Source of the DNA: Opitutus sp.
GTDB taxonomy: Bacteria > Verrucomicrobiota > Verrucomicrobiia > Opitutales > Opitutaceae
Direction of reading: 5' to 3'
DNA: 64,000 bases
NCBI GenBank assembly: GCA_009695305.1
Contig: SIBG01000004.1
Location: 1-64,000, forward strand
In this document: piece after piece, positions 2,116-4,912 of the stretch
How the letters are laid out: each line of letters begins with the position of its first letter
How positions within the stretch are numbered: position 1 is the stretch's first letter
The notes under the pieces: generated by a model
Told to the model about the DNA's origin: nothing
Database searches by the model: none
The model's input: the letters and a program-made list of their open reading frames with translations, nothing else
Program-made: the position numbers and the translations under genes

Positions 2116-2759
2116 GCACGATCAGCCATTTCGCCGTGCGCCTCGGCTTCGTCGCGGTGGCACTCGTGCTGTGGTTTTGGACCCAGCGTCTGATCAGCGC
2201 AAAAGCCCCGGCCAACGGTGGCGTCGGCGATCGCTTGCACGACTGGAGTGCCCCGCTGCACTCGTGGTTCCTGACCAATCCGCGCGCGACCGACCTCACA
2301 CTGATTCTCACGTCGGCGCTCATCGATGCGTTTGGCCTCTACTTGCTCGCGAGCGCGGTCTTCGGATCAACGGTCCAGCCCTTCATCGCGATCCTGATCT
2401 TGTTCGCGATGCGCCAGGCCTGTCAGGCAATCTGCACCCTGCCGATTCCACCGGGATCAATTTGGCGCCATCCCGGTTTCCCGTCGCTGTTCGTGACCTA
2501 CGGCACGAGCAACGATTTTTTCTTCTCCGGCCATACCGCCATCTCCGTGCTGGGCGCGATCCAACTCGCCCACACCGCCCCGCCGTGGCTCGCCCTCCTC
2601 GGCGCGATCGTCGCCGGGATCGAGGCGATCATCGTGATCATCCTCCGGGCCCACTACACGATGGACGTCTTCGCGGCGTTATTCGCCGCCTGGGGCGCCG
2701 ATGGGCTCGCGCGGCACCTCGCGCCGCAGGTCGATCTCTGGCTTGGCCGACTCGGCTAA
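2112..2759 (+). CDS. PAP2-like (sphingomyelin synthase-type) phosphatase, multi-pass membrane protein
   Basis: This 215-residue protein has about five to six hydrophobic segments and the motifs FFFSGHT (near residue 138) and HYTMDV (near residue 180). They match the catalytic Ser-Gly-His and His-x3-Asp motifs of the PAP2_C/sphingomyelin-synthase branch of lipid phosphatases. It probably removes or transfers a phospho-headgroup at the membrane. Its ATG overlaps the upstream acyltransferase stop, which suggests translational coupling. Its TAA overlaps the stop codon of the convergent cytochrome gene by 4 bases. Confidence 0.85.
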   Translation: MSTISHFAVRLGFVAVALVLWFWTQRLISAKAPANGGVGDRLHDWSAPLHSWFLTNPRATDLTLILTSALIDAFGLYLLASAVFGSTVQPFIAILILFAMRQACQAICTLPIPPGSIWRHPGFPSLFVTYGTSNDFFFSGHTAISVLGAIQLAHTAPPWLALLGAIVAGIEAIIVIILRAHYTMDVFAALFAAWGADGLARHLAPQVDLWLGRLG

Positions 2760-4060
2760 TTTTTCCAGCGCGCCTTCGCCTCGGGCAGCGTCGCCACCAG
2801 CAGGTCGTGAATGCGCTGCTTCTCGTCCGCGGGCAGGTAGGCATAGCGGTCTTTCGGATCACGACTGCGCAGCGCGGCCTCAAGCCGGTCCAGGATGCGC
2901 ACCTTCAGGGGCTCGGGCAGCCCGCGGAAGGATTCGGAATAAATCAGATAACTGCAGCGCTGCGCGAAGAGCCGCTCGCCCAGCTGCAAGTCCTTCAGGG
3001 CATGGCCGGCCGGACTGCGCGGCGCACCGCGCGCAAAGTTTTTCACAAACGCCTCGTGGCCCGTCACGCCCGCGGGCAGGGGCGCGGCGTGGCGAAAGAG
3101 GAGGTGATCGACGACATCCTGCGCGGAGCTGGCAAACACGCTCTTCACGCTGTCGTAGGCCGGTTCGTCGCTTTCCGGCTCCTTAAACGTTTTCTGCAGA
3201 CCATGCTGGTAAGCGGTCATGCGCCAGGCCGCAAAGCCGGCGTGCGTCAGGCTGTTCTGCACCGACATCTGATGCTCAAACACCAGGAGCGCGACCACAT
3301 CACTCGTCGCTTTCAAATACGCCGACGGGTCGAAGAAGGCGGAAAGTTCATCCGGCCGAGTGGCCGCCGGCTCGAAAACCAACTGATCGCCCTGCTCCCG
3401 CGCCAGGGCATTGCCGCGGTGCGCCGCCGGGCCGCGATAGCCCGTCACATACCAGCCGCCCCACCGTTGCTCGAACGGCGTCTCGTCATCGACCAGCTGC
3501 GTGCCGTGGCGGAGCAGCGGATCTCCGTTGGCGTCGGGAAAAAGTGAGCGGGCGAATACGCCCGGAATCTCGCGCACGAACGCGCCCCCATGACAGCGCA
3601 GGCAGTCGGCCTCGCGCACAATCTTGGGAGCACCACCCCGCGGCCCCGGCAGTTCCAGCGAGTAGAAGACGGGCCCGAGCTGCGGATCGATCGCCGTGAC
3701 TTCCACCACGCCGCCCGGCACCCAGCCGACATAGACCGTGTCGGAAAAATACAACGCGCGCGGATGATCGGGCCGGATGCGGGTGCGCTGAAAACTCGTG
3801 CGGGAAAACACGAGCATCTGGCTCTCGGCGGAAACGCCCAGCTCGTCCAGCAACGTCTCCACCATGTGCCGCTCGCCGCCGGCCAGCGTCACGTCACCGG
3901 CCGCGAGGCGAACCTGCAACCGCGCGAGGGCGTCCCGCGGGGTCGAGGTGGAGTAGCTGACGGGCGGACGCTCATAATCGGGTTCGCTTTGCGCGCGGGC
4001 CGCCCCCACGCCGAGCAAAGCGGCGCCGCCGAGGAGAACGATGGCATGGTGGAAAGACAT
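2756..4060 (-). CDS. Exported c-type cytochrome family protein, single CxxCH
   Basis: The protein has 434 residues. A signal peptide (hydrophobic run IVLLGGAALLGVGAARA) is followed by a periplasmic domain with one heme-binding motif, CLRCH, at about residues 153-157. Near residue 375 the stretch GERLFAQRCSYLIYS reads like a second cytochrome c helix whose CxxCH has been lost. I recall similar uncharacterised proteins in Planctomycetes and Verrucomicrobia, but no function is known to me. It starts 79 bp downstream of ric on the same strand and may be cotranscribed with it, which would fit a redox or nitrogen-oxide role; that link is inference. Confidence 0.75.
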   Translation of the reverse strand: MSFHHAIVLLGGAALLGVGAARAQSEPDYERPPVSYSTSTPRDALARLQVRLAAGDVTLAGGERHMVETLLDELGVSAESQMLVFSRTSFQRTRIRPDHPRALYFSDTVYVGWVPGGVVEVTAIDPQLGPVFYSLELPGPRGGAPKIVREADCLRCHGGAFVREIPGVFARSLFPDANGDPLLRHGTQLVDDETPFEQRWGGWYVTGYRGPAAHRGNALAREQGDQLVFEPAATRPDELSAFFDPSAYLKATSDVVALLVFEHQMSVQNSLTHAGFAAWRMTAYQHGLQKTFKEPESDEPAYDSVKSVFASSAQDVVDHLLFRHAAPLPAGVTGHEAFVKNFARGAPRSPAGHALKDLQLGERLFAQRCSYLIYSESFRGLPEPLKVRILDRLEAALRSRDPKDRYAYLPADEKQRIHDLLVATLPEAKARWKN

Positions 4061-4139: not shown

Positions 4140-4862
4140 TCAGGCGGCCGCGTGCGCTTCCAGCGCGAGCGCGCGCGGAAAGAGCACGTTGTTTTCCTTG
4201 TGCACGTGGGCGTGCAGATCGGACTCGAGCCGCGCGAAGCCCGCGAGCATCGCCCGGTGGGTGTTACAGGCCGCGGCGTCCGGGACGAAGCCATCGGTCA
4301 GCTCGCGCAGCCGCGCAACGGCCGCGCCCGCCCCGTCGTGCTCCAACTCCATTTGCCGGATGGGATTCGCGATCGAGCCACAGTGACTGGCCACCGTGCC
4401 CGCGCGCTCCAGCTCCCGCACCAGGGGAAACAGAATCTGCTCCTCCTTGGCCATGTGGTGAAACATCTCCCCGGCGAGCGCCCGGATCGTCTCGGCGACG
4501 ACCAGCAGGCGCGGGTCACGCCCGCCGTGTTTGCCCGCGACGCGGTCGGCCTTTTCGGCCAACGCCGGCAACTCCTCTTTCAAGTAGCAGTGATGCGTTT
4601 GCTCGATGTGGTCCGCCAGCGCGGTGAGCGACATCGCGCGGGCATCGACGGTCGGGCCGGCGGCCGGGAGCTTCGCCGCCGCGGCGAGCAGCACGGCAAA
4701 CGCCGCCGGATCGAGCCCTTTCCCGGCACACGCTTGGGCGAGCGTGCGCTTGCCGCCGCAGCAGTAGTCGATGCCGACGCGCTCAAACAGGCGCGCCAGA
4801 TCGGGCTGCGCGGCGACAATGTTTCCGACGGTCGCGTCGGGCGAAAATGATGAGTGGATCAT
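4140..4862 (-). CDS. ric: Iron-sulfur cluster repair di-iron protein (RIC/YtfE/ScdA)
   Basis: The 240-residue protein shows the full family architecture. An N-terminal DUF542/ScdA-N segment ends in GIDYCCGG near residues 29-36. A hemerythrin-like four-helix domain follows with the di-iron ligand motifs HHCYLKEE, FHHMAKEEQILFP, LEHDGAG and HVHKENNVLFP. Such proteins repair Fe-S clusters damaged by nitric oxide or peroxide and are often controlled by FNR/NNR-type regulators. A perfect FNR-type palindrome lies just upstream (4899-4912), supporting induction under low oxygen or NO. Confidence 0.93.
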   Translation of the reverse strand: MIHSSFSPDATVGNIVAAQPDLARLFERVGIDYCCGGKRTLAQACAGKGLDPAAFAVLLAAAAKLPAAGPTVDARAMSLTALADHIEQTHHCYLKEELPALAEKADRVAGKHGGRDPRLLVVAETIRALAGEMFHHMAKEEQILFPLVRELERAGTVASHCGSIANPIRQMELEHDGAGAAVARLRELTDGFVPDAAACNTHRAMLAGFARLESDLHAHVHKENNVLFPRALALEAHAAA

Positions 4863-4863
4863 G

Positions 4864-4912
4864 TCCGGTCATTCTGCCGGAAGCGGCCGCGCGCCGCATT
4901 GATTCGAATCAA
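4864..4912 (-). promoter_or_regulatory. FNR-type box and candidate class II promoter of ric
   Basis: Bases 4899-4912 read TTGAT-TCGA-ATCAA, a perfect match to the FNR/NNR/Dnr consensus TTGAT-N4-ATCAA. On the minus strand a candidate -10 (CAGAAT, 4876-4871) begins about 30 bases from the box centre. That is the spacing expected when an FNR-type activator sits at -41.5. The implied transcription start is near 4864, only about 2 bases before the ric ATG at 4862, so the transcript may be nearly leaderless. The box is seen directly; the -10 and start site are inferred. Confidence 0.7.

Follow-up and report, generated by a model that had tools for sequence, protein, structure and literature searches.

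A conserved, probable Dnr-type class II promoter, near-leaderless by prediction, precedes the NO-repair gene ric in an Opitutus genome

In a stretch of 64,000 nucleotides from Opitutus sp. (assembly GCA_009695305.1, contig SIBG01000004.1, positions 1 to 64,000; "the window" below), the NO-repair gene ric is preceded by a conserved, probable Dnr-type class II promoter, which by prediction is near-leaderless. We regard it as probable that ric belongs to a Dnr-type regulon and that positions 4864-4912 are its promoter, operating in the class II manner. As read from its sequence, it looks like an NO-responsive promoter that is ordinary in kind; the more novel aspect of the finding is that a near-leaderless layout is conserved.

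The ric product matches TIGR03652 with 219.2 bits against a cut-off of 204.7 and covers positions 1-216 of the 216 of the profile, as expected of a full-length RIC protein. Its start codon is secure, because the ATG at 4862 is the sole ATG, GTG or TTG in frame after the upstream stop and ahead of the conserved domain. The 106-nt intergenic region bounded by the end of the zinc-ribbon-like gene and the ric start contains a box whose inverted repeat, an exact TTGAT-N4-ATCAA, is that of an FNR/DNR-type operator (Table 1). Class II promoters have such a box centred at -41.5, and the E. coli -10 consensus is TATAAT. The hexamer CAGAAT matches this consensus at 4/6 positions, and six bases separate it from the class II start predicted at 4864. 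The initial annotation had described a perfect FNR-type box, a CAGAAT -10 at class II distance and a nearly leaderless transcript starting about 2 nt before the ATG. All three points are supported: the box has no mismatch and its function is backed by conservation in relatives, the 22-nt spacing recurs across these relatives, and their conservation likewise supports the predicted start. The gene downstream of ric, encoding a 434-aa protein for which no Pfam or NCBIfam match was found, is possibly co-transcribed with it. Its synteny with ric is kept, and its frame is still open in genome G026 despite the decay of ric there.

Table 1. Features of the ric locus, in window coordinates
Feature	Position	Strand	Remarks
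Gene for a 434-aa protein with one CxxCH	2756-4060	-	79 nt downstream of ric; adjoins ric in L062, L133, L136 and L131
ric (ytfE/scdA/dnrN family), di-iron Fe-S cluster repair protein, 240 aa	4140-4862	-	TIGR03652; ScdA_N and Hemerythrin domains
Predicted transcript start (4864) with 2-nt leader (A4864, C4863)	4863-4864	-	Placed by class II geometry
-10 hexamer CAGAAT	4871-4876 (read 4876-4871)	-	A2 and T6 are the conserved letters of the clade
Spacer of 22 nt between box and -10	4877-4898	-	Read from sequence
FNR/DNR-type box TTGATTCGAATCAA	4899-4912	-	Centred at -41.5 from predicted start; 0 mismatches to TTGAT-N4-ATCAA
Gene for a zinc-ribbon-like protein, ~75 aa	4969-5196	-	Upstream of ric; CxxC pairs; same neighbour in L133 and L131

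The evidence that carries this reading comes from relatives. A search for ric in 150 genomes of the same family gave a match in 33, some of them fragmentary, and 30 ric loci were read, that of the window included. Named genome contigs were also scanned, and the best 80 of 574 ric candidates were taken as further loci, which are mostly metagenome-assembled genomes of Opitutae/Opitutaceae, Planctomycetota and others. Removal of 11 duplicates left 99 distinct ric upstream regions, of which 56 were assigned to Verrucomicrobiota, either from the record title or as members of the family. The promoter reading did not extend to additional second copies and fragments of ric, such as those in G133, G007, G104 and G038. 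With the box defined as TTGAYN5TCAA at 45-150 nt before the conserved VGNIV codons, it is present in 46/56 distinct verrucomicrobial promoters (own included) versus 3/43 from other phyla. In 300 dinucleotide shuffles of the verrucomicrobial set the number of boxed regions averaged 0.02 and never exceeded 1, and the mirrored pattern gave 0 (one of the 43 regions from other phyla was too short and was omitted from the shuffle control). The boxed genomes are related, so that these 46 are not 46 independent events, yet the cores and spacers vary whereas the arms are constant. This is also seen at the loci syntenic with the window, which have TTGAT-GCGG-ATCAA (G145/L132) and TTGAT-CCGC-ATCAA (L133). 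The commonest form is the asymmetric TTGAC-N4-CTCAA (16/46), and not the FNR palindrome TTGAT..ATCAA (11/46); TTGAC..GTCAA accounts for 10/46. No box was found in one of the two ric copies each of G023 and G135, the other copies of which (L134, L170) are boxed, in the ric promoters of G088, G143 and G015 (1 mismatch), or at five loci that belong to other verrucomicrobial lineages (L193, L195, L203, L204, L207). The boxed ric genes from outside the phylum come from records with the titles Leptolyngbya, Oculatellaceae cyanobacterium and Vampirovibrio (L165, L175, L197).

The spacing is conserved too. A -10 with the A2/T6 pattern lies at an offset of 22 nt from the box in 40/46 boxed promoters, as it does at the window locus. 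Another 3 have it at 21 nt, and no other offset between 15 and 31 shows the pattern in more than 4 of the 46. The distance from the -10 to the ATG, on the other hand, floats between 2 and 56 nt. A fixed 22-nt offset combined with a floating ATG indicates that the -41.5 geometry is under selection: class II activation at -41.5 would predict a fixed offset, and chance would not. An extended -10, with TG before the hexamer, is seen in 18/46, and a GG directly follows the box in 37/46; the window promoter has neither. Its lack of the GG weighs against our reading, as do the two mismatches of CAGAAT to TATAAT and the five boxless loci of other lineages.

A candidate activator is also found in the relatives, namely a CRP/FNR protein that combines a cNMP-binding domain with HTH_Crp_2. 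Among the 150 family genomes this Dnr-like regulator is present in 31/33 with a ric match versus 38/117 without (Fisher p = 8.0e-11, with fragmentary ric matches counted and kinship ignored), and its start lies within ~1.3 kb of the ric start in 13/31 genomes with both. A match was likewise obtained in 9/10 further genomes behind the named loci, two being weak at 164-184 bits (L146, L159); the genome behind L163, a boxed locus, gave no Dnr-like match. Box, -10 and regulator are all present for the metagenome-derived loci L147, L152 and L154, which are from Lacunisphaera and Opitutus. The location of the regulator varies. G145 has it flanked by a DUF2249 gene and a globin gene. A different site is used in G150 (the genome of L133): there the regulator adjoins a PanB-like frame, with genes for CopD, NrfA-like, NapC/NrfH-like, SCO1 and FGE proteins nearby, as well as a gene that fuses copper oxidase and cytochrome c. 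G020 has a dense cluster of exact boxes, again 22 nt from a -10, ahead of genes for a cytochrome c, an Rrf2 regulator and a COX1-like protein (L077, 11674, 13772 and 14366); a fused copper-oxidase/cytochrome c gene is close by. The surroundings in G150 and the boxes in G020 fit a nitrite/NO regulon. As a separate observation, a Dnr box in G020 seems to drive the gene of a second regulator, Rrf2.

Only two of the 33 ric-matching genomes are without the regulator, G026 and the genome analyzed here. In the latter, the completeness of which is 87.41%, no Dnr-like gene was found in the assembly, the best match (E 0.157) being part of the MntR-like L004. No CRP-type HTH regulator was found in the assembly either, with L004 as the sole PF13545 match, nor was DUF2249, the partner beside the regulator of G145. 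L004, which we take by reading to be MntR/DtxR-like, was rejected as the regulator, since this 152-aa frame matches the HTH only in part and the cNMP-binding domain not at all. The seven PF00027 matches (five proteins) were rejected because none has a CRP HTH; by our reading they are presumably cNMP+TIR (L005), SulP/STAS+cNMP (L006), cNMP only (L007, L008) and cNMP, repeated, with ferredoxin-like clusters (L009-L011). The initial annotation had tied its case to a CRP/FNR gene in the genome; on the assembly none is found, which at this completeness does not decide the matter.

A reading to be weighed here is that the Dnr-like regulator was recently lost, leaving the perfect box as a relic and ric constitutive, silent or otherwise regulated. 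In line with this, neither the regulator nor DUF2249 is in the assembly, and other genes stand at the site syntenic with G145: on C22, which is syntenic with part of the G145 contig, DUF2237 and YqeY-like genes replace the globin, regulator and DUF2249 genes. Placing the missing regulator by synteny was rejected, however, since the regulator of G150 sits elsewhere and the other genes on C22 are not proof of loss; with its location differing between relatives, a single site without it says little. G026 shows that the regulator can be lost in this lineage, but there the loss is accompanied by a ric broken across three frames (L131, 4304-5008) with no ATG at the usual place and by a box eroded to TTGATGCCGGCCAA, although the -10 TAGACT is unchanged from G145 and the neighboring genes are kept. 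Here both ric and the box are intact, so that the locus does not resemble a loss. Moreover, the regulator is present in all 31 other ric-matching genomes outside G026, and ~13% of this genome is unassembled. Because of these 31/31 genomes we prefer a regulator gene in the unassembled ~13%, which is likelier than a lost one, about threefold by judgement and not by computation, and we hold a relic box to be rather improbable.

The regulator of the relatives is likely a Dnr-type CRP/FNR protein without conserved cysteines, and not FNR, to judge by its sequence. An E-T-x-S-R motif is invariant in the recognition helix of 24 aligned regulators, the best match among solved structures is DNR (PDB 3dkw, E 1.1e-27), and the curated FtrB model also stays far below its cut-off. 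It is very unlikely that the sensor is instead an FNR that detects oxygen through a cysteine-ligated iron-sulfur cluster: the box does equal the exact FNR consensus, but according to the available part of PMC1274295 this is shared by FNR and DNR, no invariant or nearly invariant cysteine was found in the 24 aligned regulators, and the FNR model NF008365 gives 55 to 75.7 bits in four of them versus a cut-off of 228. Of the oxygen- or NO-sensing CRP/FNR regulator earlier suggested for this lineage, the CRP/FNR protein stands, co-occurring with ric; it is, however, Dnr-like (NO) and not FNR-like (oxygen), and none was found in this genome.

Counts of the box within the window and the genome were rejected as evidence, since they are near chance. 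With up to one mismatch there are 2 matches in the 64-kb window versus 1.06 expected. The whole-genome search that had been proposed earlier returned 3 exact sites in the 4.29-Mb assembly (0 for the mirrored pattern), only the one before ric lying outside coding sequence. The other two fall within reading frames, which we take by reading to be aldehyde-dehydrogenase-like and TonB-receptor-like. A looser pattern has 16/19 sites by strand, versus 10/8 for its mirrored control. Neither set of counts thus supports the box, and proof has to come from the relatives; the position of the box less than 50 nt from an NO-repair gene is suggestive. That the box is a chance palindrome is scarcely credible, for although these counts and the two exact boxes in coding sequence would allow it, the relatives conserve both box and fixed -10 spacing, which refutes it for the clade.

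The short leader predicted for ric is shared by many of its relatives. Both a -10 and an ATG could be assigned in 43 promoters, and in 23 of these the predicted leader does not exceed 3 nt (a gap of at most 9 nt from -10 to ATG); the gap is 15 to 56 nt in the remaining 20, and none has 10-14. Predicted leaders are therefore bimodal, either up to 3 nt or at least 9 nt with none between. A Shine-Dalgarno-like 4-mer is seen in 1/20 of the longer leaders. We surveyed 172 kb of this genome, some stretches of which overlap and in which gene calls are rough, and found such a 4-mer before 7/81 first ATGs versus 28/327 internal ATGs, the same rate; TANNNT is found more often 6-9 nt ahead of first ATGs than of internal ones. 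As first ATGs show no Shine-Dalgarno enrichment, its absence at ric is normal for this genome, and from these sequence counts near-leaderless genes may be not rare in it. Some Verrucomicrobia are listed as Shine-Dalgarno-scarce in the accessible portion of PMC10783764. A bolder proposition, which we consider doubtful, is that Opitutales keep their NO-repair gene on a near-leaderless Dnr class II promoter as a unit of ~50 nt that joins switch, start site and start codon, and that, in a lineage with no Shine-Dalgarno signal, selection and not accident would have favored this way of translating ric under nitrosative stress.

These observations suggest the following mechanism. A homodimeric Dnr-like CRP/FNR activator, presumably switched on by NO, would bind TTGATTCGAATCAA at -41.5 and substitute for the missing -35 contact, recruiting RNA polymerase to the CAGAAT -10 by class II activation. 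Transcription would begin at about 4864, giving an mRNA that starts ~2 nt before the AUG and that would be translated in leaderless fashion with no Shine-Dalgarno signal, whose absence seems to be usual for genes here. The resulting Ric would repair iron-sulfur or di-iron centers damaged by NO. The basis for this scheme is the box, its spacing, its conservation, and the fact that regulator, box and ric occur and decay together among the relatives.

Verrucomicrobia go unmentioned in the available parts of the DNR/HcpR regulon paper (PMC1274295) and of the RIC review (PMC9268430). We found no literature on CRP/FNR proteins and NO in Opitutaceae, and none on leaderless transcripts or transcription start sites in Verrucomicrobia; as far as we searched, a Dnr-type ric promoter is new for this lineage. 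It extends a Dnr/NO regulatory logic mainly derived from Proteobacteria to many verrucomicrobial genomes, nearly all of them metagenomic, and the operator with its spacing is sharp enough for regulon prediction. With the predicted transcript start close to the AUG in a seemingly Shine-Dalgarno-free lineage, leaderless translation becomes testable in a defined stress response.

In E. coli, FNR class II promoters lack a good -35; their box is centred at -41.5 and the -10 follows after 22 nt. The predicted ric promoter shares all three features, but it has no Shine-Dalgarno sequence and almost no leader, and no FNR protein was found here. The HcpR regulon offers a second comparison: the HcpR consensus TTGACnnnnGTCAA is given for deltaproteobacteria and two cyanobacteria in the available text of PMC1274295, 10/46 boxes have the form TTGAC..GTCAA, and two of the three boxed loci from outside Verrucomicrobiota are titled cyanobacteria, the third Vampirovibrio. 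However, according to the same text HcpR chiefly controls hcp, and among solved structures DNR is the best match of the regulators here, a comparison that did not include HcpR. A further parallel concerns the DNR regulon of Pseudomonas and relatives, with the consensus CTTGATnnnnATCAAG; the same portion of PMC1274295 has dnrN (ric) regulated by NsrR, NorR or HcpR, and the RIC review, in its accessible part, has P. stutzeri ric activated by DnrD (PMC9268430). The type of box is the same, the regulator of the relatives is closest to DNR among solved structures, and that of G150 lies near copper-oxidase/cytochrome c, NrfA-like and SCO1 genes. In contrast, the verrucomicrobial motif is looser, TTGAY-N4-NTCAA, with TTGAT..ATCAA making up just 11/46, and in the verrucomicrobial clade ric is a core target, often beside the regulator gene, with about half of its promoters predicted to be near-leaderless.
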